From: Xanthobacter sp. YC-JY1 | Lineage (GTDB): Bacteria > Pseudomonadota > Alphaproteobacteria > Rhizobiales > Xanthobacteraceae | DNA: 64,000 bases | NCBI RefSeq assembly: GCF_021730305.1 | Contig: NZ_CP032674.1 | Span: 310,001 to 374,000 of the forward strand | Reading direction: 5' to 3' | Shown here: positions 16,701 through 56,873 of the stretch, one piece after another | Numbering within the stretch: the first letter of the stretch is position 1 | How the letters are laid out: the number at the start of each line of letters is the position of its first letter | The notes under the pieces: generated by a model | The model's input: only the letters and a program-made list of their open reading frames with translations | The model's database searches: none | What the model was told of the DNA's origin: nothing | Made by a program: the position numbers and the translations under genes

Positions 16701-17739
<1,039 letters not shown>

Positions 17740-17823: not shown

Positions 17824-19329
17824 ATGAGCTTGGCCCAACCGCAAAGCGTTGCTGAAATCAAGGCGCGGAACAAGGAACTCATCGCGGAAGTCCTCAAGGT
17901 TTATCCCGAGAAGACCGCGAAGCGCCGCGCGAAGCACCTCAACGTCCACGAGTCCGGCAAGTCTGACTGCGGCGTGAAGTCGAACATCAAGTCCATCCCG
18001 GGCGTGATGACGATCCGCGGCTGCGCCTACGCCGGCTCCAAGGGCGTGGTGTGGGGTCCGATCAAGGACATGATCCACATCTCCCACGGCCCCGTGGGCT
18101 GCGGCCAGTACAGCTGGGCCGCCCGCCGCAACTACTATATCGGCACGACCGGCATCGACACCTTCGTGACGATGCAGTTCACCTCGGACTTCCAGGAAAA
18201 GGACATCGTCTTCGGCGGCGACAAGAAGCTTGCCAAGATCATGGACGAAATCCAGGAGCTGTTCCCGCTCAACAACGGCATCACCGTCCAGTCCGAGTGC
18301 CCGATCGGCCTCATCGGCGACGACATCGAGGCCGTGTCCAAGGCGAAGTCCAAGGAATACGACGGCAAGACCATCGTTCCGGTCCGCTGCGAAGGTTTCC
18401 GCGGCGTGTCGCAGTCCCTCGGCCACCACATCGCCAACGACGCGGTGCGTGACTGGGTGTTCGACAAGCTGGACCCGAACAAGGCGCCTCCGTTCGAGCC
18501 GTCGCCCTACGACGTCGCGATCATCGGCGACTACAACATCGGCGGCGATGCCTGGTCGTCCCGTATCCTCCTCGAGGAAATGGGCCTGCGCGTGATCGCC
18601 CAGTGGTCGGGCGACGGCTCGCTCGCCGAGCTCGAGAACACCCCCCGGGCGAAGCTGAACGTCCTGCACTGCTACCGCTCCATGAACTACATCTCCCGCC
18701 ACATGGAAGAGAAGTTCGGGATCCCGTGGTGCGAGTACAACTTCTTCGGCCCCTCCAAGATCGCGGAGTCGCTGCGCAAGATCGCCGCTTACTTCGACGA
18801 CAAGATCAAGGAAGGCGCCGAGCGCGTCATCGCCAAGTACGCGCCCCTCATGGACGCGGTGATCGCCAAGTATCGTCCGCGCCTCGAAGGCAAGACGGTC
18901 ATGCTGTACGTGGGCGGCCTGCGTCCCCGTCACGTGATCGGGGCCTATGAGGACCTCGGCATGGAAGTGGTGGGCACGGGTTACGAGTTCGCCCACAACG
19001 ACGACTATCAGCGCACCGCCCAGCACTACGTCAAGGATGGCACGCTCATCTATGACGACGTGACCGGCTACGAGTTCGAGAAGTTCGTCGAGAAGGTCCA
19101 GCCGGACCTGGTCGGCTCGGGCATCAAGGAAAAGTACGTCTTCCAGAAGATGGGCGTGCCGTTCCGCCAGATGCACTCCTGGGACTATTCCGGCCCGTAC
19201 CACGGCTACGATGGCTTCGCCATCTTCGCCCGCGACATGGACATGGCCATCAATTCCCCCGTCTGGAAGATGACCAAGGCCCCGTGGAAGCAGGCTCCCG
19301 GCCAGGCGGGGCTGCTCGCCGCCGAGTGA
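17824..19329 (+). CDS. nifD: nitrogenase molybdenum-iron protein alpha chain
   Basis: NifD with NifK forms the alpha2beta2 dinitrogenase that reduces N2 at FeMo-co. The 501-residue protein has P-cluster cysteines in [21 protein letters not shown] and [10 protein letters not shown]. The cofactor cysteine is in the central region and the cofactor histidine in the C-terminal region near [17 protein letters not shown]. These are the molybdenum-type signatures; there is no VnfD/AnfD character. It is 85 bases after nifH with a hairpin in the spacer, and a second hairpin follows before nifK. Confidence 0.98.
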
Positions 19330-19357
19330 GGCGGATTTTCGAGCGCCTGAACCAGAA

Positions 19358-19381
19358 GCCCCTCCCTTCGCGGGGAGGGGC
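19358..19381 (+). other. nifD-nifK intercistronic hairpin
   Basis: A perfect 9-bp C/G-rich stem with a six-base loop lies 29 bases after nifD and 47 before nifK. It lacks a T-tract. It may tune nifD versus nifK mRNA stability. Confidence 0.5.
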
Positions 19382-19427
19382 ACCCGGGACGGGCTCCCAT
19401 ATTTGACCCACATATTAGGGGTTCGAG

Positions 19428-20987
19428 ATGCCACAGAATGCAGACAACGTGCTCGATCACTTCGAGCTGTTCCGCGGTCCCGAGTACCAGCAGATGCTGG
19501 CCAACAAGAAGAAGATGTTCGAGAACCCCCGCGATCCCGCCGAAGTCGAGCGCATTCGCGAGTGGGCCAAGACTCCCGAGTACAAGGAAAAGAACTTCGC
19601 CCGCGAGGCCCTGACGGTGAACCCGGCCAAGGCCTGCCAGCCGCTCGGCGCGGTGTTCGTGGCTGTCGGCTTCGAGCACACGATCCCGTTCGTGCACGGC
19701 TCCCAGGGCTGCGTCGCCTACTACCGTTCGCACCTGTCCCGTCACTTCAAGGAGCCCAGCTCCTGCGTGTCGTCTTCCATGACGGAAGATGCGGCGGTGT
19801 TCGGCGGCCTCAACAACATGATTGACGGCCTCGCCAACACCTACAACATGTACAAGCCCAAGATGATCGCGGTCTCCACCACCTGCATGGCGGAAGTGAT
19901 CGGCGACGACCTGAACGCCTTCATCAAGACGGCGAAGGAAAAGGGCTCGGTCCCGCAGGAATACGACGTGCCCTTCGCGCACACCCCGGCCTTCGTCGGC
20001 AGCCATGTCACCGGCTACGACAACGCCATCAAGGGCGTGCTGGAGCACTTCTGGGACGGCAAGGCCGGCACCGCCCCCAAGCTGGTTCGCGAGCCGAACG
20101 AGAAGATCAACTTCATCGGCGGCTTCGATGGCTACACCGTCGGCAACCTGCGTGAAGTCAAGCGCATCTTCGGCCTGATGGGCGTGGACTACACCATCCT
20201 CGGCGACAATTCGGAAGTGTTCGACACGCCGACCGACGGCGAGTTCCGCATGTATGACGGCGGCACCACCCTGGAAGAGGCGGCCAACGCCGTCCACGCC
20301 AAGGCCACCATCTCCATGCAGGAATACTGCACCGAGAAGACCCTGCCGTTCATCGCCAACCACGGCCAGGAAGTCGTCGCCTTCAACCACCCCGTGGGCG
20401 TGAAGGGCACCGACGAATTCCTGATGGCGATCGCGCGGATCTCCGGCAAGGAAATCCCGGAAGAGCTCGCCAAGGAGCGCGGCCGCCTCGTCGACGCCAT
20501 CGCCGACTCGAACGCCCACATCCACGGCAAGAAGTTCGCCATCTACGGCGATCCCGACCTCTGCCTGGGTCTCGCCAGCTTCCTGCTGGAACTCGGCGCC
20601 GAGCCCACCCACGTCCTTGCCACCAACGGCAACCAGAAGTGGGCGGACAAGGTCCAGAAGCTGTTCGATAGCTCGCCGTTCGGCCAGAACTGCAACGTCT
20701 ATCCCGGCCGTGACCTCTGGCACATGCGCTCCCTGCTCTTCACCGAGCCGGTGGACTTCCTGATCGGCAACACCTACGGCAAGTATCTCGAGCGCGACAC
20801 GGGCACCCCGCTGATCCGCATCGGCTTCCCGGTGTTCGACCGTCACCACCACCACCGTCGTCCGGTGTGGGGCTATCAGGGCGGCATGAACGTCCTGATC
20901 ACCATCCTCGACAAGATCTTCGACACCATCGATCAGAACACGATCGTGCCCGCGAAGACCGACTATTCGTTCGACATCATCCGTTGA
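19428..20987 (+). CDS. nifK: nitrogenase molybdenum-iron protein beta chain
   Basis: NifK is the beta subunit of dinitrogenase and shares the [8Fe-7S] P-cluster with NifD. The 519-residue protein has the long N-terminal extension normal for Mo-type NifK, P-cluster cysteine regions [25 protein letters not shown] and [13 protein letters not shown], and the conserved [11 protein letters not shown] near the C-terminus. GGGGTTCGAG precedes the ATG. It sits 98 bases after nifD and 132 bases before nifE, both spacers holding hairpins. Confidence 0.98.
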
Positions 20988-21009
20988 TCGCATAGGTGAA
21001 ATGTTCGAT

Positions 21010-21035
21010 CCGGCCCGGGGCCCCGCCCGGGCCGG
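21010..21035 (+). other. nifK-nifE intercistronic hairpin
   Basis: A perfect 10-bp stem (CCGGCCCGGG) with a six-base loop lies 22 bases after nifK. No T-tract and no sigma-54 promoter were found before nifE, so nifEN probably depends on read-through from nifH, and this hairpin may lower it. Confidence 0.55.
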
Positions 21036-21119
21036 CCCGACAGGGAGAGTGAAGTCCGCCCCCGATGTGATGTTCGCGCCCGCGATCTTTGCACAGCCCG
21101 TCCGCCGAAGGAGAGATCC

Positions 21120-23015
21120 ATGAGCTCGGTTTCCGCCACGATCCAGCAAGTGTTCAACGAGCCCGGCTGCGCGAAGAACCAGAACAAATCGGAAGCGGAA
21201 AAGAAGAAGGGGTGCACCAAGCAGCTCCAGCCCGGCGGCGCCGCCGGCGGCTGCGCCTTTGACGGCGCCAAGATCGCCCTTCAGCCGCTGACCGATGTCG
21301 CGCACCTGGTGCATGGCCCCATTGCCTGCGAGGGCAACAGCTGGGACAACCGCGGCGCGCGCTCCTCCGGCTCGCAGATCTGGCGCACTGGCTTCACCAC
21401 CGACATCAACGAGACGGACGTGGTGTTCGGCGGCGAGAAGCGCCTGTTCAAGTCCATCAAGGAAATCATCGAGAAGTACAATCCGCCGGCCGTCTTCGTC
21501 TACCAGACATGCGTCCCCGCCATGATCGGCGACGACATCGACGCGGTCTGCAAGGCGGCGAAGGAGAAGTTCGGCACGCCGGTGATCCCGATCAATTCGC
21601 CCGGCTTCGTGGGCCCGAAGAACCTCGGTAACAAGCTGGCCGGCGAGGCCATCCTCGAGCATGTCATCGGCACCGAGGAGCCGGAATACACCACGCCCTA
21701 CGACATCAACATCATCGGCGAATACAATCTTTCCGGCGAGCTGTGGCAGGTGAAGCCGCTGCTCGACGAGCTGGGCATCCGCATCCTCGCCTGCATCTCC
21801 GGCGACGGCCGCTACAAGGATGTGGCCTCCTCGCACCGCGCCAAGGCGGCGATGATGGTCTGCTCGAAGGCCATGATCAACGTGGCCCGCAAGATGGAGG
21901 AGCGCTACGACATCCCCTTCTTCGAAGGCTCCTTCTACGGCATCCAGGATTCCTCGGATTCGCTCCGCGAGATCGCCCGCATGCTCATCGAGCGCGGCGC
22001 CGATCCCGAGCTGATGGACCGCACCGAGGCGCTCATCGAGCGCGAGGAGGCGAAGGCTTGGGCGGCGATCGCCAAATTCAAGGATCGCTTCAAGGACAAG
22101 AAGGTTCTGCTCATCACCGGCGGCGTGAAGTCCTGGTCGGTGGTCGCGGCGCTGCAGGAAGCCGGCCTCGAGCTGGTCGGCACCTCCGTGAAGAAGTCCA
22201 CCAAGGAGGACAAGGAGCGCATCAAGGAGCTCATGGGGCAGGACGCCCACATGATCGACGACATGACGCCCCGCGAAATGTACAAGATGCTGAAGGACGC
22301 GAAGGCGGACATCATGCTCTCGGGCGGCCGCTCGCAGTTCATCGCGCTCAAGGCCGCCATGCCCTGGCTCGACATCAACCAGGAGCGCCACCACGCCTAT
22401 ATGGGCTATATCGGCATGGTGAAGCTCGTGGAGGAGATCGACAAGGCGCTCTACAATCCCATCTGGGAGCAGGTGCGCAAGCCCGCCCCGTGGGACAACC
22501 CGGCCAACAACTGGCAGAACCGCGCCATCGCCCAGATGGAAGCCGAGGCCGCCGCCCTCGCCGCCGATCCGGTCGCCGCCGAGAAGGCTCGCCGCGCCAA
22601 GAAGATCTGCAACTGCAAGAGCGTGGACCTCGGCACCATCGAGGACGCCATCACGGCGCACAGCCTCACCACGGTCGAGGGCGTGAAGACCCACACCAAC
22701 GCCTCCGGCGGCTGCGGCGCCTGCTCGGGCCGCATCGAGGACATCTTCGAGGCGCTCGGTGTCGCGGAGCCCGCGCCGGCTGATCCGGTGCTGGCCGAGG
22801 CCGCGCGCCGCGCCAAGAAGGTCTGCAACTGCAAGAGCGTCACCGTCGGCACCATCGAGGATGCGGTCGCCGCCGGCGCCTCCAACCTCGCCGAGGTGAC
22901 CGCCCGCACTGAGGCCGGTTCCGGCTGCGGCAAGTGCGGTGAGCGCATCGAGGACATGCTGGACGAACTCGTCGCCCCGCTCGGCACACCGGCCGCTCTC
23001 GTGGCCGCCGAATAG
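21120..23015 (+). CDS. nifE: FeMo-co scaffold NifE with two C-terminal BFD-like [2Fe-2S] domains
   Basis: NifE with NifN forms the scaffold on which NifB-co matures to FeMo-co. At 631 residues it is far longer than the roughly 470-residue classic NifE. Residues 1-485 are NifE, with CAFDGAKIALQPLTDVAHLVHGPIACEGNSWD-type landmarks. The extension has two similar units, about 490-545 and 560-620, each C-x-C followed some 30 residues later by C-x2-C (CNCKS...GCGACSG and CNCKS...GCGKCGE). This is the cysteine pattern of bacterioferritin-associated ferredoxin and of the NifU central domain. The units probably bind [2Fe-2S] clusters and could feed electrons or Fe-S units to NifEN. nifN follows nine bases later. 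Confidence 0.95.
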   Translation: MSSVSATIQQVFNEPGCAKNQNKSEAEKKKGCTKQLQPGGAAGGCAFDGAKIALQPLTDVAHLVHGPIACEGNSWDNRGARSSGSQIWRTGFTTDINETDVVFGGEKRLFKSIKEIIEKYNPPAVFVYQTCVPAMIGDDIDAVCKAAKEKFGTPVIPINSPGFVGPKNLGNKLAGEAILEHVIGTEEPEYTTPYDINIIGEYNLSGELWQVKPLLDELGIRILACISGDGRYKDVASSHRAKAAMMVCSKAMINVARKMEERYDIPFFEGSFYGIQDSSDSLREIARMLIERGADPELMDRTEALIEREEAKAWAAIAKFKDRFKDKKVLLITGGVKSWSVVAALQEAGLELVGTSVKKSTKEDKERIKELMGQDAHMIDDMTPREMYKMLKDAKADIMLSGGRSQFIALKAAMPWLDINQERHHAYMGYIGMVKLVEEIDKALYNPIWEQVRKPAPWDNPANNWQNRAIAQMEAEAAALAADPVAAEKARRAKKICNCKSVDLGTIEDAITAHSLTTVEGVKTHTNASGGCGACSGRIEDIFEALGVAEPAPADPVLAEAARRAKKVCNCKSVTVGTIEDAVAAGASNLAEVTARTEAGSGCGKCGERIEDMLDELVAPLGTPAALVAAE

Positions 23016-23024
23016 GAGGGCGCG

Positions 23025-24464
23025 ATGGCCAAGTTCGTCCAGGCGAAGAAGAGCTGCGCGGTCAACCCGCTGAAGATGAGCCAGCCCATCGGCGGCGCGC
23101 TCGCCTTCATGGGCCTTCGGGGCGCCATGCCGCTGCTGCACGGTTCGCAGGGCTGCACCTCATTCGGCCTCGTGCTGTTCGTGCGGCACTTCAAGGAGGC
23201 CATCCCGCTTCAGACCACGGCCATGAGCGAGGTGGCCACCGTGCTCGGCGGCTACGACAATGTCGAGCAGGCCATCCTCAATATCTACAATCGCACCAAG
23301 CCCGAGATCATCGGCATCTGCTCCACCGGCGTCACCGAGACCAAGGGCGACGACGTGGACGGCTACATCAAGCTGATACGCGAGAAGTATCCGCAGCTCG
23401 CCGACTTCCCGCTGGTCTATGTCTCGACCCCCGATTTCAAGGACGCCTTCCAGGACGGATGGGAGAAGACGGTCGCCAAGATCGTCGAGGTGCTGGTGAA
23501 GAAGCCCGAGCCGGACGCGCCCAAGAACCCCAAGCGCGTCAACGTGCTGCCCGGCTGCCACCTGCAGCCTGGCGACCTCGATGAGCTGCGCTGCATCCTG
23601 GAGGATTTCGGCCTTGAGCCGTCCTTCCTCCCGGACCTCGCCGGCTCGCTCGACGGACACATTCCCGACGACTTCACGCCCACCACCATCGGCGGTATCG
23701 GTGTGGATGAGGTCGCCACCATGGGCGAGGCGACCTGGACCATCGCCATCGGCAGCCAGATGAAGACGGCGGCCGAGGCGATGCAGAGGAAGACGGGCAC
23801 GCCCTACCGGCTGTTCGAGCGCCTCTGCGGGCTCGGTCCGAACGACGAGTTCTTCATGTTTCTGAGCGAGATCTCGGGCCGCGAGGTGCCGCGCCGCTAT
23901 CGCCGCCAGCGGGGCCAGCTGGTGGATGCCATGCTGGATGCGCACTTCCATCTCGGCGGTCGCAAGCTGGCCATCGGCGCGGAGCCGGATCTCCTGTTCG
24001 ATGTCGCCTCGGCTTTGCACGAGATGGGCACGCACATCACCGCCGCCGTCACCACCACCCAGTCGCCGGTGTTCGAGAAGCTGCCCTGCGACGAGGTGCT
24101 GCTGGGCGATCTCGAGGATCTGGAGACGCTGGCGAAGGAGCGCGGCTGCGACCTGCTGCTCACCCATTCCCATGGGCGCCAGGCGGCGGACCGGCTGAAC
24201 ATTCCCTTCTATCGCATCGGAATTCCCATGTTCGATCGCATCGGCTCCGGCCACAAGATGACGGTCGGCTATCGCGGCACGCGCGACCTCATGTTCACGC
24301 TGGCCAATATGTGCATCGCCGACCACGAGCAGAACCACGACGCGACCCCCGACACGTGGAAGAACCCGTGGGACGGCGATGGCCACGGCCATGGCACTAC
24401 CCATGTTGCCACCCCTGCCGGCGCGCCCGATCTCGGACCCGCACCCAGCACCGCCCACCACTGA
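23025..24464 (+). CDS. nifN: FeMo-co scaffold protein NifN
   Basis: NifN is the NifK-like partner of NifE. The 479-residue protein has CAVNPLKMSQPIGGALAFMG-type N-terminus, HGSQGCTSFG and FDRIGSGHKMTVGYRGT near the end. The last 45 residues are a low-complexity, His/Pro/Ala-rich tail containing GDGHGHGTTH, which might bind metal. GGAGGGCG precedes the ATG. nifX begins 40 bases after the stop. Confidence 0.97.
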   Translation: MAKFVQAKKSCAVNPLKMSQPIGGALAFMGLRGAMPLLHGSQGCTSFGLVLFVRHFKEAIPLQTTAMSEVATVLGGYDNVEQAILNIYNRTKPEIIGICSTGVTETKGDDVDGYIKLIREKYPQLADFPLVYVSTPDFKDAFQDGWEKTVAKIVEVLVKKPEPDAPKNPKRVNVLPGCHLQPGDLDELRCILEDFGLEPSFLPDLAGSLDGHIPDDFTPTTIGGIGVDEVATMGEATWTIAIGSQMKTAAEAMQRKTGTPYRLFERLCGLGPNDEFFMFLSEISGREVPRRYRRQRGQLVDAMLDAHFHLGGRKLAIGAEPDLLFDVASALHEMGTHITAAVTTTQSPVFEKLPCDEVLLGDLEDLETLAKERGCDLLLTHSHGRQAADRLNIPFYRIGIPMFDRIGSGHKMTVGYRGTRDLMFTLANMCIADHEQNHDATPDTWKNPWDGDGHGHGTTHVATPAGAPDLGPAPSTAHH

Positions 24465-36106: not shown

Positions 36107-36121
36107 TGGCACGGCTGTTGC
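36107..36121 (+). promoter_or_regulatory. sigma-54 promoter of nifB
   Basis: TGGCACGGCTGTTGC is a full consensus match. The ATG follows 55 bases later. Confidence 0.92.
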
Positions 36122-36175: not shown

Positions 36176-37750
36176 ATGCACGCGTCGACACAGCAAGAAA
36201 ACGCGGTTGGCCTGAACGCCGTCGGAATGGACGAGAAGCTGGCCGAGGTCATGCAGGCCAAGGCCGAGCACCAGGGCTGCGGCACCTCGGGTGGTTCGGG
36301 CAAGGCGAGCTGCGGCTCGTCGGCCGGACAGGGCGACCTGCCCACCGAGATCTGGGAGAAGGTGAAGAACCATCCCTGCTACAGTGAAGAAGCCCACCAC
36401 CACTATGCGCGTATGCATGTTGCCGTTGCCCCGGCGTGCAACATCCAGTGCAACTACTGCAATCGCAAGTATGACTGCGCCAACGAGAGCCGCCCCGGCG
36501 TGGTCTCGGAGAAGCTGACGCCCGAGCAGGCCGCGAAGAAGGTGCTGGCGGTGGCCTCCACCATCCCGCAGATGACCGTGCTTGGCATCGCCGGCCCCGG
36601 CGACCCGCTCGCCAACCCCGAGAAGACCTTCAAGACCTTCGAGCTGATCGCGAAGACCGCGCCGGACATCAAGCTCTGCCTGTCCACCAACGGCCTTGCC
36701 CTGCCGGACCACGTGGACACCATCGCCGGCTTCAACGTGGACCACGTGACGATCACCATCAACATGGTGGACCCCGAGGTCGGCGCGAAGATCTATCCCT
36801 GGGTGTTCTGGAAGCACAAGCGCTACACCGGCTATGAGGCGGCCAAGCTCCTCACCGACCGGCAGATGCTCGGCCTCGAGATGCTCACCGAGCGCGGCAT
36901 CCTGTGCAAGGTGAACTCGGTGATGATCCCCGGCATCAACGACAAGCACCTTGTCGAGGTGAACCGTGCCGTGAAGTCGCGCGGCGCGTTCCTGCACAAC
37001 ATCATGCCGCTCATCTCCTCCCCCGAGCATGGCACCGTGTTCGGCCTCAACGGCCAGCGCGGCCCGACCGCCCAGGAGCTCAAGGCGCTCCAGGACGAGT
37101 GCGAGGGCGAGATGAACATGATGCGTCACTGCCGCCAGTGCCGCGCCGACGCCGTGGGCCTCCTCGGCGAGGACCGCTCCGCCGAGTTCACCACCGACAA
37201 GATCATGGCCATGGAGGTCAATTACGACCTCGACAGCCGCAAGGCCTACCAGGCCCTCGTCGAGGAAGAGCGCGTCGCCAAGGTGGCGGCGAAGCAGGAG
37301 GAGCTGGAGGCTCTCGCCGGCGAGCAGAGCGACATCAAGCTGCTCACCGCTGTCGCCACCAAGGGCTCGGGCCTCATCAACGAGCACTTCGGCCACGCCA
37401 AGGAGTTCCAGGTGTGGGAACTCTCCACGGCGGGCGCCAAGTTCGTCGGCCATCGCCGCGTCGACCTGTACTGCCAGGGCGGCTACGGCGAGGAGGACAG
37501 CCTCGAGACCATCATCCGCGCCATCAACGACTGCCATGCGGTGTTCGTGGCGAAGATCGGCGGCTGCCCGAAGGCGGACCTCATCAAGGCCGGCATCGAG
37601 CCCGTCGACACCTTCGCCCACGAGTTCATCGAGAAGTCGGCGATCACCTGGTTCAAGGAATACCTGAACAAGGTGAAGACCGGCGAGATCGTCCACACCG
37701 CGCGCGGCGACGCCGAGATCCGGCAGGGCGCGCTCATCAACGCGGCCTGA
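36176..37750 (+). CDS. nifB: FeMo-co core synthase NifB
   Basis: NifB is the radical-SAM enzyme that fuses two [4Fe-4S] clusters with a carbide and sulfide to NifB-co. The 524-residue protein has the radical-SAM C-x3-C-x2-C in [14 protein letters not shown] near residue 88. The C-terminal NifX-like domain begins about residue 385 ([22 protein letters not shown]). The N-terminus has a Cys-containing linker ([18 protein letters not shown]). GCGAGGAGCAG precedes the ATG. fdxN follows after 24 bases. Confidence 0.97.
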
Positions 37751-38325: not shown

Positions 38326-38432
38326 GGGCGGGGAGGGCGGCAACGTCTGATCACGACCCGGGGCGGCCTGGCGCCGTCCCGGCATTTCCGGGCCGGATTT
38401 CCGCCGGCACCAGGACAGGACGGGGACAGGGA

Positions 38433-38984
38433 ATGGACGGGATCGTGGGTTCCGCGCAGGTCTCCGGCGAGCCCGATTTCCTGACCCCCGAAGCGCTCCT
38501 TGCGAGCGCGGTGATGGGCGGAGGGTTGCCGGAAGACGCACAGTTTCATCTGTGGGAAGCCGGCCTCTCCTACCAACAGTACGACGTTGCGGAAGCGCAT
38601 CTTCGCAAGGCCGAGGCCATCGCCCCCGGTCATGCGGCGGTGCTGATCGGGCTCTACCGCTTCTACTTCTACAAGGGCCGCCTGCGGGAGTGCCTCGGGG
38701 TGGCGCGGGAGTGTCTCGCCAAGGCGCAGCGGGAGACCAATCTCCCGGCCGACTGGCGGGACGTGCGGGCGGAGGACGCGGAATTCTCCCGCTATGACCG
38801 CCTGATGCCGCGCTTCTTCCTGTTCACGCTGAAGGGCTACGCCTACCTCAACATGCGCCTCGGGGATCTCGACGAGGGGCGCGCCGCGGTGATGAAGCTG
38901 CTCGAGCTCGATCCGTCCGACAAGATCGGCGCGAAGCTCTTGCTCGACGTGCTGAACAGAGCGGGGCAGGACGATGATGACTGA
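38433..38984 (+). CDS. TPR-type protein, nif-linked, copy 1
   Basis: A 183-residue helical protein with two or three tetratricopeptide-like pairs (YDVAEAHLRKAEAIAPGHAAVLIGLYRF, GRLRECLGVARECLAKA, GDLDEGRAAVMKLLELDPSDKIG). I chose the ATG at 38433; a long upstream frame overlaps the previous gene. It shares order and motifs with the protein at 45085 (LYxFxxYxGxLxE, DWRxW/V, FxLYTLK-like FTLKGYAYL, LDP). It overlaps the LRV gene by 11 bases. Probably a protein-protein adaptor in nitrogenase maturation. Confidence 0.85.
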   Translation: MDGIVGSAQVSGEPDFLTPEALLASAVMGGGLPEDAQFHLWEAGLSYQQYDVAEAHLRKAEAIAPGHAAVLIGLYRFYFYKGRLRECLGVARECLAKAQRETNLPADWRDVRAEDAEFSRYDRLMPRFFLFTLKGYAYLNMRLGDLDEGRAAVMKLLELDPSDKIGAKLLLDVLNRAGQDDDD

Positions 38985-39756
38985 CGACGACATCGAGGAT
39001 GCCAAGACCTGGCTCGGCGAAGACGTCGACTGCCGGAGCTGCGCTCATGCGGGCGACCTTCTGCCCGCCGGCAAATGCCAGCTGCGGCGCGCCTGCGTGA
39101 ACGACCGGTACGCCCGACGCATCGACCGCTTCTTCAACTGGAATCCGAAGCTCGCCAATTCCTATGTGGGCCACGAGCATTTCGAGGTCCGTGCCATCGC
39201 GGCGAAGCATGCCGACGTGTTCTTCCTGAAGCCGCTCCTCAACGATCCCGAGGAGACCGTGCGCTGGAACGCGGCGCGCCGGTTGCCCAAGCGGCTCATC
39301 CTGCCGCTGCGCAACGATCCCCATCGCGAAGTGCGCATCCGCATCGTCTCGCTGCTGGAGGATGCGGAACTGGCGCCCATGCTGGCGGATGACGATTACT
39401 ACGTGCGCCTCGTGGTGGCCCGCCGCATCGCGCCGCCGCTGCTGTCGCGCCTCGTGGACGATCCGGAGCCGGAGGTGCGCAAGGTGGTGGCCCAGCGGCT
39501 GCCGGCCGAATGGCTGATGTGCATGGCGAAGGATCGCAGCGCCGCCGTCCGCCTGGAAGTGGCGCAGCGCCTTGCCCCGGACCTGCTCCCGGCGCTCGCC
39601 GGCGATGCGGACTGGCGGGTGCGCTACGAGGTGGCGGGCCGCGTGGCGCCGTCCCAGCTCGCCCGTTTCCTGGATGACGACGACGACTTCGTGCGCGAGG
39701 TCGCCCGCTCCCGCATGGAGGCGGGCGGGCCGCTCTTGAGGGAGATGCCGCTATGA
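38974..39756 (+). CDS. Fe-S leucine-rich-repeat-variant (LRV) protein, copy 1
   Basis: A 260-residue protein of the LRV family first described next to nif genes in Azotobacter. The N-terminal cysteine cluster C-x2-C-x11-C-x5-C (CRSCAHAG to CQLRRACV) should hold a [4Fe-4S] cluster. Residues 60-250 are about eight LRV repeats of some 24 residues, each with a pattern like DDPEPEVRKVVAQRLP. Overlaps with both neighbours (11 bases with TPR, four with nifZ) show tight coupling. A paralogue is at 50695. Function unknown; a binding platform is likely. Confidence 0.93.
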   Translation: MMTDDDIEDAKTWLGEDVDCRSCAHAGDLLPAGKCQLRRACVNDRYARRIDRFFNWNPKLANSYVGHEHFEVRAIAAKHADVFFLKPLLNDPEETVRWNAARRLPKRLILPLRNDPHREVRIRIVSLLEDAELAPMLADDDYYVRLVVARRIAPPLLSRLVDDPEPEVRKVVAQRLPAEWLMCMAKDRSAAVRLEVAQRLAPDLLPALAGDADWRVRYEVAGRVAPSQLARFLDDDDDFVREVARSRMEAGGPLLREMPL

Positions 39757-40070
39757 GCAACATCGTCCGCGACAGTGATGTGGTTGAGATTTCCGAGCCG
39801 CCCTACTTCAATTTCGGCGAGAAGGTGAAGGCGAAGCGGGTGATCCGCAACGACGGAACCTATGCCGGCAAGGAGATCGGCGAGATTCTCGCGAAGAAGG
39901 GCGAGATCGGCTACGTGGTCTCCATCGGCACCTTCCTCCAGCAGTTCTACATTTACGGCGTCGAGTTTACCGAGAGTGGCAACCGCGTCGGCATGAAGCG
40001 CAAGGAACTGGAGAGCGCCGTTCCGCGCGAAGAACAGGACATCCCGCTGCCCCCCGCCCCCGGAGTTTGA
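39753..40070 (+). CDS. nifZ: nitrogen fixation protein NifZ
   Basis: NifZ helps form the second P-cluster of the MoFe protein. The 105-residue protein has EPPYFNFGEKVKAKRVIRNDGTY and GEIGYVVSIGTFLQQFYIYGVEF, the family core. It overlaps the LRV gene by four bases (ATGA) and is followed by a second NifZ-like gene. Confidence 0.94.
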   Translation: MSNIVRDSDVVEISEPPYFNFGEKVKAKRVIRNDGTYAGKEIGEILAKKGEIGYVVSIGTFLQQFYIYGVEFTESGNRVGMKRKELESAVPREEQDIPLPPAPGV

Positions 40071-40075
40071 CTGCC

Positions 40076-40318
40076 ATGATGCTCGAACCGCGCCTGCCCA
40101 AGTATGACTGGGGCATGAAGGTCAAGACCCTCATCGATCTCTACAATGACGGGTCCTATCCAGACATGCCGGAGGAGGGGCTTCTGGTCGGCGTCGGCAC
40201 GGTCGGCGAGATCGTGCAGGTGGGCCAGCACACGGATACCAACACGCCCATCTACCTCATCGAATTCAACGAGCGCCTGGTCGTGGGTTGCCTCGAGGAA
40301 GAGATCCAGCCGCTCTGA
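40076..40318 (+). CDS. second NifZ-like protein
   Basis: An 80-residue protein with the NifZ-type beta-barrel pattern: YDWGMKVKTLIDLYNDGSYPDMP, GTVGEIVQVGQHTDTNTPIYLIEF and GCLEEEIQPL. It parallels the preceding nifZ and probably arose by tandem duplication. ATG codons at 40076 and 40079 are both possible. It starts six bases after the nifZ stop. Confidence 0.88.
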   Translation: MMLEPRLPKYDWGMKVKTLIDLYNDGSYPDMPEEGLLVGVGTVGEIVQVGQHTDTNTPIYLIEFNERLVVGCLEEEIQPL

Positions 40319-40373
40319 TCCCTCGATGCGGGGCATCGGCGCCGCGCGAGACACAGCCGCGAGAGATAGGACG

Positions 40374-40703
40374 ATGAGGCTGCCCGCTCATCCGAACGAT
40401 CTCGACAGGAAGCGCATCGAGCGCGCCATCCGGGCGCGCAAGCGCTATCGCTATGTCACGCCCCGCGTCCTGGCCACGGAAGGCGGCTACCGGATCGAGA
40501 GCGCGTGCTGCTCGCGCAATATCGATCCCGAAGGCGGGGTGGTCGACATCGCCCTGATGATCTTCGATCCGGAGCAGGCCGCGTGGCAGCTGTTCCGCAA
40601 GAACCACGGCAAGCGCCTCTGGGAGCTCGACAGTATTCACGAGCGGCTGAAGGAATTGCTGGAGCTTCTGAACGACGACACCGAGCGTCGATTTTGGCAG
40701 TGA
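40374..40703 (+). CDS. conserved hypothetical protein, nif-linked (possibly DUF3024)
   Basis: A 109-residue basic protein. ERAIRARKRYRYVTPRV, GGYRIESACCSRNIDPEGGVVDIALMIFD and WELDSIHERLKELLELLNDD suggest a small alpha/beta domain with a vicinal Cys-Cys. The DUF3024 name is from memory and weak. I chose the ATG at 40374; a longer frame overlaps the NifZ-like gene. It lies in the nifB-to-43063 run and has no own promoter that I can see. Confidence 0.75.
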   Translation: MRLPAHPNDLDRKRIERAIRARKRYRYVTPRVLATEGGYRIESACCSRNIDPEGGVVDIALMIFDPEQAAWQLFRKNHGKRLWELDSIHERLKELLELLNDDTERRFWQ

Positions 40704-40791
40704 TCCAAACTGGCAATGATCCTGCATGGCATGGGATGGACCGCGACAAAGCCGCCGGTCGTGTCTCATTCCGGCACGGGAGAGTAAGGTT

Positions 40792-41055
40792 ATGGCCCTG
40801 AGCGACAGCGACCTCACCGAGATCGAGAAGGTGCTCACCGCCGAGGAGCCGGCGGGCCCGGTCTTCGCCGAACTGCGCAAGCGCTTTCCGGCCCTCTCCT
40901 GGACCCAGTGCGACGCCTCCGACGTCACCGAGGCGCCGTTCCGGACCTATCCCCGGTACGACGTGCATCTGCTCGACACCGCGGATCACTGCGCCCACAT
41001 CACCTCCGATCCCGGCGCCGCCACCGGCGTGATCCTCGCACGGCGGAGCGCGTGA
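40792..41055 (+). CDS. small conserved hypothetical protein, nif-linked (DUF6129-like)
   Basis: An 87-residue acidic protein. FAELRKRFPALSWTQCDASDVTEAPFRTYPRYDVHLLDTADHCAHITSDP forms the apparent core, with two cysteines and several histidines. I recall DUF6129 proteins of this type in nif clusters, but the assignment is not certain. Its stop overlaps the next start (TGATG), so it is translationally coupled to the DegT-like gene. Confidence 0.75.
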   Translation: MALSDSDLTEIEKVLTAEEPAGPVFAELRKRFPALSWTQCDASDVTEAPFRTYPRYDVHLLDTADHCAHITSDPGAATGVILARRSA

Positions 41056-42254
41056 TGAGCGACGCCGATTTCCTGGACGATTTCGATCTCGGCGAGGGAG
41101 AAGGTGGCGAGGCCACCAATATCCTTCTGTCGGATCCCGACATCACCGTCATCGAGCTGCAGGCGGTGGCCGAGGCCATGCAGGCGCCGCGCCTGTCCAG
41201 CGGTCCCCTGGCGGAGCAGTTCGAGGCGGAGTTCGCGGCCTATCTCGGCCGCAAATATGCCGTCGCCGTGCCGAGCGGCACCCTCGGCCTGCTCTACACG
41301 CTGAAGGCCTACGGCATCGGCCCGGGGGACGAGGTGATCGCCTCGCCCTATTCCTTCCGCGAGACGGTGCACGCCATCAGCCTCTCCGGCGCGCGCCCGG
41401 TGTTCGCCGACATCGACTATTGGGCGGGAACCCTCGTGCCGGAGAAGGCCGAGGCGAAGATCACCGACAAGACCAAGGCCATCGTCGCCGGCAACACCAA
41501 TGGCCATCCCGCGCCCTGGACCGCCTTCCAGGAGCTGGCGCGCAAGCACAAGCTGGCGTTGATAGAGGATTCCACCGAGGCCATCGGTTCGCGCTACAAG
41601 GGTGCGCTGGTGGGGACGTTCGGCGACACGTCCGTGTTCGATTTCTCACAGCCCTTCCCCATCGTGTGCGGCGAGGGCGGCATGGTGGTGACGGACGACA
41701 TCGACGTCGCCGTGGCGCTGCGGCGCTTCCGCTCTCACAAGCTGGAGGAGCGGTCCTCCGTCGTCGTCAGCATGAGCGCGCCCTACCAGGGCGCCATGAG
41801 CGATATCACCGCCGCGCTGGGCCTCACCCAGCTGCGCCGGCTCGAGGAAATCCTCGAGCAGCGGCACACGGTGGAGCACCTCTACCAGAAGTACGTCCAG
41901 TCCTTCGAGGGCATCAAGGATCCCTTCATCGGGCCGGACGTGACGGAGGTGAACTGGTTCCTCTACGTGGTCCATCTCGGCACCCGTTTCTCCAAGTCGA
42001 GCCGCGATTCCATCGTCGAGGATCTGAAGGTGGAGAAGGTCGAATCCGCCGGCTACAGCACCCCGCTGCATGTGCAGCGGCACTATTTCGACCTCGGCTA
42101 TCGCCGGGGCGATTTCCTTGTGACGGAGAAGGTGGCCGACCGCGCGGTGGCGCTGCCGTTCCACACCCACCTGAACGAGGAGGAGATCGAGTTCATCGTG
42201 GCAACGATGAAGGATGCCTCGGTCAATGTAGGGGCGGGCGCCGCCATCTACTGA
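41055..42254 (+). CDS. DegT/DnrJ/EryC1/StrS-fold protein lacking the PLP lysine
   Basis: A 399-residue protein with the fold-type I aminotransferase pattern of the DegT family: SSGPLAEQFEAEFAAYLGRKYAVAVPSGTLGL at the start, GDEVIASPYSF, ALIEDSTEAIGSRYKG around the cofactor-binding aspartate, and CGEGGMVVT. The Schiff-base lysine normally stands five residues before GEGG; here the segment is DFSQPFPIVCGEGG, with Phe at about residue 201 in that place and no lysine nearby. Normal transamination is therefore unlikely. It may be a dehydratase-like variant, a binding protein or a structural pseudoenzyme. It lies between two small nif-linked genes and just before a cysteine-free ferredoxin-like gene. 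Confidence 0.9.
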   Translation: MSDADFLDDFDLGEGEGGEATNILLSDPDITVIELQAVAEAMQAPRLSSGPLAEQFEAEFAAYLGRKYAVAVPSGTLGLLYTLKAYGIGPGDEVIASPYSFRETVHAISLSGARPVFADIDYWAGTLVPEKAEAKITDKTKAIVAGNTNGHPAPWTAFQELARKHKLALIEDSTEAIGSRYKGALVGTFGDTSVFDFSQPFPIVCGEGGMVVTDDIDVAVALRRFRSHKLEERSSVVVSMSAPYQGAMSDITAALGLTQLRRLEEILEQRHTVEHLYQKYVQSFEGIKDPFIGPDVTEVNWFLYVVHLGTRFSKSSRDSIVEDLKVEKVESAGYSTPLHVQRHYFDLGYRRGDFLVTEKVADRAVALPFHTHLNEEEIEFIVATMKDASVNVGAGAAIY

Positions 42255-42306
42255 AACGCAACAAGATCGCACCCCAAACACTAAGACGAAACGACAGGAG
42301 TTGTTG

Positions 42307-42621
42307 ATGTCCACGGTTACGCTGAAGGTCCTCCCCATGGGCAAGACCATTGAAGTCGCGGAAGGCACGAACCTCCTCGAGGCGCTCATCACCGTCGAGC
42401 CGGGGCTCGCCGAGCGCCAGAAGAGCGACAAGGACGGCAGCGCGTCCCACGTGTTCGTCCAGGAAGGCCGCAAGGGCCTGTCCAAGACCACCCGTGAGGA
42501 GAACGAGAGCCTCGACGCGATCGTCGGTGTCGGCTCCAAGTCCCGCCTCGCCAAGCATGTCACCGTGCTCGGCACCGAGAACGTGACCATCGAGCTGCTC
42601 GGCGAGTTCTCGGGCTTCTGA
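42307..42621 (+). CDS. [2Fe-2S] ferredoxin-fold protein without cysteines
   Basis: A 104-residue protein with the sequence frame of adrenodoxin-type ferredoxins: GTNLLEALI, then HVFVQEGRKGLSKTTREENESLDAI, and SKSRLAKHVTVLG. In active family members the loop before HVxVxEG has three cysteines and the late segment reads SRLACQ. Here the loop is SDKDGSAS and the late residue is lysine, so all four ligands are gone and no cysteine remains in the protein. I chose the ATG at 42307; TTG codons at 42301 and 42304 precede it. It follows the lysine-free DegT-like gene by 52 bases, so a joint role is likely. Confidence 0.85.
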   Translation: MSTVTLKVLPMGKTIEVAEGTNLLEALITVEPGLAERQKSDKDGSASHVFVQEGRKGLSKTTREENESLDAIVGVGSKSRLAKHVTVLGTENVTIELLGEFSGF

Positions 42622-42838: not shown

Positions 42839-43063
42839 ATGAGCGACGAGACTGTGATCATTCACGCCCGCTTTGCCGCCAACGGCACCATCGCGGAGAT
42901 CAGCGAGCGGCCTCAGGGACTGAATCCCCAGGAGTGGTTCGACTTCCTGTCCTACCGTTCCGCCGACAAGTACCAGGCGCTGGCCGGCGGTCGCGGCGTG
43001 TTCCGCCTCACCCGCGCCGAGGTCGAGGCCTCCAAGGTCGACGCGACCACCAAGGCGGCGTGA
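42839..43063 (+). CDS. small conserved hypothetical protein, nif-linked
   Basis: A 74-residue protein, not recognised. TVIIHARFAANGTIAEISERPQGLNPQEWFDFLSYRS suggests a beta hairpin and helix. No cysteines. GAGAGGAGAGACG before the ATG at 42839 is a strong ribosome binding site and decides this start over 42779. It lies between a hairpin and a strong terminator and could be its own unit or the end of the nifB run. Confidence 0.75.
   Translation: MSDETVIIHARFAANGTIAEISERPQGLNPQEWFDFLSYRSADKYQALAGGRGVFRLTRAEVEASKVDATTKAA

Positions 43064-55892: not shown

Positions 55893-56873
<981 letters not shown>

Follow-up and report, generated by a model that had tools for sequence, protein, structure and literature searches.

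The window, the whole 64,000-nucleotide stretch analysed here, carries at 42307..42621 (+ strand) a gene for a ferredoxin-like protein that has no cysteine among its 104 amino acids, as seen in the open reading frame and in profile and homologue comparisons. The 104-codon frame of this gene, hereafter fdx, begins with ATG at 42307 and ends with TGA at 42621, and an AGGAG lies upstream of the start at 42296-42300. Alignment places the former three-cysteine cluster loop, now KSDKDGSAS, at residues 39-47 (42421..42447, + strand); the loop of the product is ERQKSDKDGSASH, the fourth ligand site is SRLAKH, and a conserved segment, VFVQEGRKGLSKTTREENESLDAIVGVGSKSR, occupies residues 49-80 (42451..42546, + strand). 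The neighbouring gene (41055..42254, + strand) encodes a 399-residue member of the DegT/DnrJ/EryC1/StrS family, recognised by profile matches and alignments, in which the PLP-binding lysine is missing: where 7b0d has K, the window protein has F. An earlier note had described a cysteine-free protein with these changes in the loop and at SRLAKH, lying beside a lysine-less DegT protein, and sequence and alignment bear out both descriptions.

Both genes belong to a nif block, in which every position given here lies on the + strand. Its first gene is nifB (36176..37750; NCBIfam and gene-order comparison), and the gene after nifB we take to be SufA/HesB-like. There follow genes for a TPR protein (38406..38984), an LRV protein with an FeS4 domain (38974..39756) and NifZ (39753..40070), all three assigned by Pfam; a second small frame that is NifZ-like by inspection and has no NCBIfam match at E ≤ 0.1 (40067..40318); a DUF3024 protein (40275..40703; Pfam); a conserved small hypothetical protein (40788..41054; 89 amino acids in the part scanned); then DegT, fdx and a 74-amino-acid hypothetical protein (42839..43063). 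Gene-order comparison finds the last of these 3' of fdx in many relatives, and it has no match in Pfam (E ≤ 1) or NCBIfam (E ≤ 0.1). A SufA-like gene is also named with these genes in the excerpt of PMC3899966. Alphaproteobacterial diazotrophs have the block order in common, among them Azorhizobium, Bradyrhizobium, Nitrospirillum, Niveispirillum, Methylocapsa and Acidiphilium, with gaps: nifB, TPR or LRV genes are not alongside in several Methylocystis, DUF3024 is missing in two loci (L100 and L103), and the TPR gene is missing in several Bradyrhizobium. A conserved place in the nifB-nifZ block, our test for a nif accessory gene, was found for fdx.

The block running from nifB to DegT and fdx is likely under nif control, because a pattern search places a sigma-54-type -24/-12 match (36107..36121, + strand) and two TGT-N10-ACA sites (35996 and 36034), presumably of the NifA type, upstream of nifB; we infer that nifB to fdx forms one transcript. 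Profile searches of the wider window revealed a NifH match (16866-17678, + strand), four NifDKEN-type matches (18022-24314, + strand) and a second NifH match (55953-56765, − strand), the two NifH matches scoring equally (433.8 bits) on opposite strands and thus marking a duplicated nifH. Across the window, TGT-N10-ACA, which reads alike on both strands, was counted 20 times where 3.7 were expected, and the sigma-54-type pattern 11 times (at most one mismatch) against 4.4 expected; this excess of both promoter-type patterns fits a nif region.

The ancestry of the window protein is traced by several searches. The NCBIfam model fdx_isc (TIGR02007) matches it at E = 1.1e-9 and 38.4 bits, below the equivalog cut-off of 132.1 bits, which the four-cysteine orthologue L015 also misses (66.4 bits). 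A phmmer search of the PDB returned 3ah7, a [2Fe-2S] ferredoxin that is presumably that of P. putida (E = 2.6e-4). The family profile, built from the window protein and 41 relatives (41 of the 47 fdx genes above 100 bits), found its best PDB match in the ferredoxin 1i7h, which we take to be E. coli Isc Fdx (E = 1.3e-13; positions 6-95 of the 102-position profile). Searched alone against Pfam, the window protein matched no family at E ≤ 1, and its gene is absent from the 24 matches of a Fer2 search of its own genome. The fdx_isc, 3ah7 and 1i7h matches confirm the kinship with adrenodoxin-type ferredoxins proposed in the earlier note. Judged by these matches, which are not chance, descent from Isc/adrenodoxin-type [2Fe-2S] ferredoxins is clear, and it is further backed by orthologues with four, three, two and no cysteines within one family. 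By its sequence the protein is without the four defining cysteine ligands, and it is not classed as a functional [2Fe-2S] ferredoxin. The GRKG, SKSR and LGTEN stretches of its family are not seen in the 1i7h and 3ah7 alignments. The family profile also hit MoFe alpha chains of nitrogenase weakly (E 0.4-0.8), which was put down to chance.

Named DegT matches and the tree identify the genus of the window as Xanthobacter, with X. aminoxidans as the nearest named species. Each of the 14 genomes of this genus has a single homologue at E ≤ 0.001, and the protein is cysteine-free in 12 of them, the two others being the most divergent: X. tagetidis (L013/L054), with two cysteines, and the MAG HJP_bin50 (L014/L048), with three. 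Sequencing error as the source of the cysteine-free gene is ruled out by its presence in these 12 genomes, its own included. The five matches outside the genus but within the family all keep four cysteines. The earlier note had named close four-cysteine homologues as a refutation; these orthologues (52-64% identity) are such homologues, but they bear on ancestry and leave a docking role unrefuted.

Among the named loci, which are the best 80 of 332 candidates, fdx has four cysteines in 35, none in eight and one to three in four; it is decayed or absent within the stretch compared in 32, all of them Bradyrhizobium, and in one (L102) it is cut off by the end of the contig, although that locus is labelled absent in the DegT tree. 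A quick DegT tree of 86 rows, computed without L095, whose DegT frame is broken, unites the zero-cysteine rows in one group (support 97); it does not settle the placement of L048 and L054. Two Methylocystis MAG loci (L097 and L109) retain the fourth cysteine alone, and they fall in a fully supported clade with five four-cysteine relatives, so ligands were lost there separately. The very divergent L120 (G344), whose cluster loop is shortened to HKCGDACH and which has a total of three cysteines, is probably a third separate case.

In the Bradyrhizobium loci where the place of fdx is decayed or empty (L072-L077, L079-L084, L086, L088-L096, L098, L099, L107, L108, L111, L112, L117 and L118), DegT is still there, often with the 74-amino-acid gene as well. 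It is broken in L095 (Bradyrhizobium pachyrhizi PAC 48), where the DegT frame, from 10001, breaks after 223 residues.

The cysteine-free genes bear a clear evolutionary signature. Nine of the 12 were compared, three near-copies being left out, and dN/dS (Nei-Gojobori) lies at 0.067-0.385 over all 36 pairs; such ratios argue strongly for purifying selection, and on them a pseudogene is rejected. Mean identity between 29 four-cysteine and nine zero-cysteine rows (four rows with one to three cysteines left out) is 0.086 in the cluster loop, 0.331 in the fourth-cysteine region and 0.432 in the N-terminal part, against 0.786 over residues 49-80 and 0.682 at the C-terminus. The segment after the loop is preserved as EGRKGLSK..REENE.LD.IVGVGSKSR, and DKDG stands in the loop in all nine aligned zero-cysteine rows and all 12 cysteine-free genomes. 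Read from the alignment, the cofactor site is rewritten and the remaining C-terminal half is spared. The cysteine-free Xanthobacter protein is real, conserved and unusual.

The DegT neighbour has a different history. Its Schiff-base lysine is missing in all 99 DegT rows (80 named loci and 19 relatives, with overlapping genomes), whether fdx has four, one to three or no cysteines or is gone, and the residue at that position varies (F, S, L, G, A, V). The comparison indicates that lysine loss is an old trait of the DegT family and cysteine loss a younger trait of fdx. Coordinated degeneration is rejected because the lysine is missing in every row and the cysteines in few lineages; the earlier view of a matched degenerate pair is not supported, since DegT has lost its lysine beside four-cysteine ferredoxins too. 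Only one DegT cysteine column is invariant, Cys205, near the missing lysine. Another, Cys335, was considered as a residue tracking the ferredoxin cysteines and rejected on row counts (17/38 four-cysteine, 0/11 zero-cysteine, 1/5 rows with one to three cysteines and 20/31 decayed rows).

The two genes are linked, though not in every genome. Of 101 related genomes (own included), 19 have DegT and the same 19 have fdx, adjacent in each, and fdx takes the same place after DegT in 47 of 47 named loci with fdx above 100 bits (best 80 of 332). Among 385 genomes drawn from across the class, its own among them, fdx was found in three (E ≤ 1e-15) and DegT in four (E ≤ 1e-100). One genome (G151, L119/L137) has a four-cysteine fdx relative and DegT 1.67 Mb apart on one contig, and another (G448) has a DegT match with no fdx match at E ≤ 1e-15. 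These two cases, together with the 32 Bradyrhizobium loci, show that DegT does not need fdx.

The DegT sequences offer a hint of contact between the two proteins. Among 249 DegT columns conserved in the other rows, five are changed throughout the zero-cysteine clade and four throughout the fdx-decayed Bradyrhizobium clade, with two (41 and 43) common to both against 0.08 expected, an overlap of two clades only that was sought post hoc and is confounded by descent. Position 43 is R in 36/38 four-cysteine rows and 4/5 rows with one to three cysteines, Q in 11/11 zero-cysteine rows and C in 29/32 rows labelled absent or decayed; under stricter cut-offs column 43 alone is still common to both clades. 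Other clade pairs also overlap, by up to five columns for the one-cysteine Methylocystis against the L100/L103 rows, in which 24 and 20 columns respectively are changed. The overlap at columns 41 and 43 hints at a contact of DegT with the fdx product.

The distribution of fdx within Bradyrhizobium runs mostly opposite to that of NodA. In a comparison made without L061, NodA above 300 bits was found in 29 of the 31 genomes whose fdx is decayed or absent, against two of nine with four-cysteine fdx, a contrast confounded by descent, as 29 of the fdx-less rows form one clade. A third of the nine has a weak partial NodA match (29.8 bits). As for the two that have both, CCBAU 51765 carries two DegT loci, with a four-cysteine fdx at L105 and none at L082, and B. 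sacchari (L071), which has NodA, a four-cysteine fdx and one DegT match, truly departs from the pattern. The opposite exceptions, L065 and L084, have neither NodA nor fdx. In photosynthetic Bradyrhizobium, the excerpt of PMC3899966 describes BRADO5410/BRADO5411, a [2Fe-2S] ferredoxin and a DegT aminotransferase, with NifZ, LRV, TPR and SufA-like genes, and assigns the pair no function. According to the same excerpt, the operon, including BRADO5414, 5416, 5418 and 5424, is conserved in nod-independent strains and in A. caulinodans and is not conserved in rhizobia incapable of free-living nitrogen fixation; genes of the BRADO5414/5416/5418/5424 group are up-regulated in A. caulinodans bacteroids, and such expression in nodules sits less easily with a role confined to the free-living state.

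With modest confidence, we lean towards reading the Xanthobacter protein as a former nif-region [2Fe-2S] ferredoxin that has given up its cluster and is maintained for a protein-binding face and not for electron transfer. All four ligands have been lost in one Xanthobacter clade; the fold would be retained and no cluster bound. The preserved face would dock on a partner from the Nif pathway; the ancestral redox role would have been dispensable and lost more than once, and the docking role would be needed mainly in free-living nitrogen fixation. The earlier note had proposed a new complex or docking mimic; docking appears to be the best remaining reading, shorn of the matched degenerate pair.

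Two candidate partners are suggested by analogy. Given a docking role, the first would quite possibly be the lysine-less DegT protein, a pseudo-enzyme platform with fdx as its small subunit, by analogy with Isc ferredoxin on IscS/Nfs1, which is a PLP enzyme. The second, which we put forward slightly more tentatively, would be nitrogenase or a NifB/NifEN maturation step, by analogy with the binding of FeSII to nitrogenase. A bolder extension, which we regard as speculative and somewhat unlikely, is that the fdx product and DegT form an unrecognised two-part pseudo-enzyme complex that serves free-living nitrogen fixation and joins an inactive PLP-fold scaffold to the ferredoxin. Its Xanthobacter form would be cluster-free, perhaps O2-proof, and would hold or guard a Nif component; redox activity of the ferredoxin would be optional, and Methylocystis and one further lineage would have taken similar steps independently.

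The docking protein we propose resembles several known systems in part. Isc ferredoxin (TIGR02007, 1i7h) is the best sequence match and docks on a PLP protein (excerpt of PMC8888459), whereas the window protein is without cysteine ligands and its gene lies in a nif block next to that of a DegT protein lacking the lysine. FeSII (Shethna protein II) of Azotobacter is likewise adrenodoxin-type and linked to nitrogen fixation, and it acts by binding (PMC12585515; excerpt of PMC11301756), but it has four cysteines (excerpt of PMC3045800) and is switched by oxidation. In plant mitochondrial complex I, the ferredoxin C1-FDX serves as a structural subunit, which its authors conclude stabilises the complex; it still coordinates one iron ion, and it belongs to another complex (excerpt of PMC9873573). 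BRADO5410/BRADO5411 are annotated as the same pair with the same kind of neighbours, the ferredoxin as [2Fe-2S] (excerpt of PMC3899966). Among the papers listed by a search that reached few subscription journals, we found no published description of a cysteine-free nif ferredoxin, and the available portions of PMC3169532 and PMC3912193 name nothing as an fdx gene. That one gene, at a constant place, exists with four, three, two, one or no cysteines and also as a ruin amounts to a natural separation-of-function experiment. Comparing its cysteine variants would tell electron transfer from binding for a nif-linked ferredoxin, and it bears on FeSII-like protection and on the choice of genes for moving nitrogen fixation into aerobic hosts.

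Oxygen protection of the FeSII/FdxD kind is an unlikely alternative, in which the ferredoxin binds and shields nitrogenase and the cysteine-free form is a lock that needs no oxidation. The nifH and nifDKEN-type genes lie within the same window. Nodules limit O2, and Bradyrhizobium retain fdx mostly without NodA and have lost it with NodA. The operon is also kept in nod-independent strains and A. caulinodans (excerpt of PMC3899966), and FeSII, itself adrenodoxin-type, joins the two nitrogenase components in a complex that resists O2 (PMC12585515; excerpt of PMC11301756). However, activation of FeSII is induced by oxidation (PMC12585515), which is impossible in that way for a cluster-free protein. 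The best PDB match of the 42-row profile is 1i7h, and the FeSII entries 5ffi and 6yav are absent among its 48 PDB sequences at E ≤ 10, an indirect and weak test of FeSII kinship; 9iey, a 122-residue 'Ferredoxin' matched over residues 6-50 only (E = 0.047), could be related to FeSII. Moreover, fdx shares its block with nifB and nifZ, whereas the nifHDKEN matches lie 18-25 kb away.

It is less probable still that the four-cysteine ancestor was an electron donor for Fe-S or NifB-cofactor assembly and that the cysteine-free copy acts as a regulator or competitor at the same docking site. The closest families are indeed Isc ferredoxins (TIGR02007; 1i7h). Frataxin carries no cluster. The Isc-type Yah1 binds Nfs1, a PLP cysteine desulfurase, at a site that frataxin uses as well (excerpt of PMC8888459). 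Against this, the scores of 38.4 and 66.4 bits stay far under the 132.1 bits of the TIGR02007 cut-off, and with one homologue at E ≤ 0.001 per genus genome there is no close four-cysteine twin to compete with.

It seems very unlikely that DegT and the ferredoxin together make up a PMP-dependent redox enzyme like CDP-hexose dehydrase (E1/E3). DegT-family E1 and ColD proteins are also without the lysine, and the DegT profile matches 3bb8 and 3gr9, but the RfbH model gives 152.6 bits where its cut-off is 423, several different residues take the place of the lysine, and a single invariant cysteine column leaves DegT with no cysteine set for a cluster of its own, while the Xanthobacter ferredoxin has no cluster to carry electrons. 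Most improbable of all, a gene heading for loss and open by chance would accord with the decay or absence of fdx in 32 of the 80 named loci, but not with the low dN/dS of all 36 pairs, the lack of stops in the 12 cysteine-free genomes or their new common loop motif, DKDG.

A minor observation concerns the loop at 42421-42447. D-x-D-x-S is a metal-binding turn motif, and the DKDG(S/G) common to the cysteine-free proteins resembles such a turn; the loop may conceivably have exchanged its Fe-S cluster for another ion.
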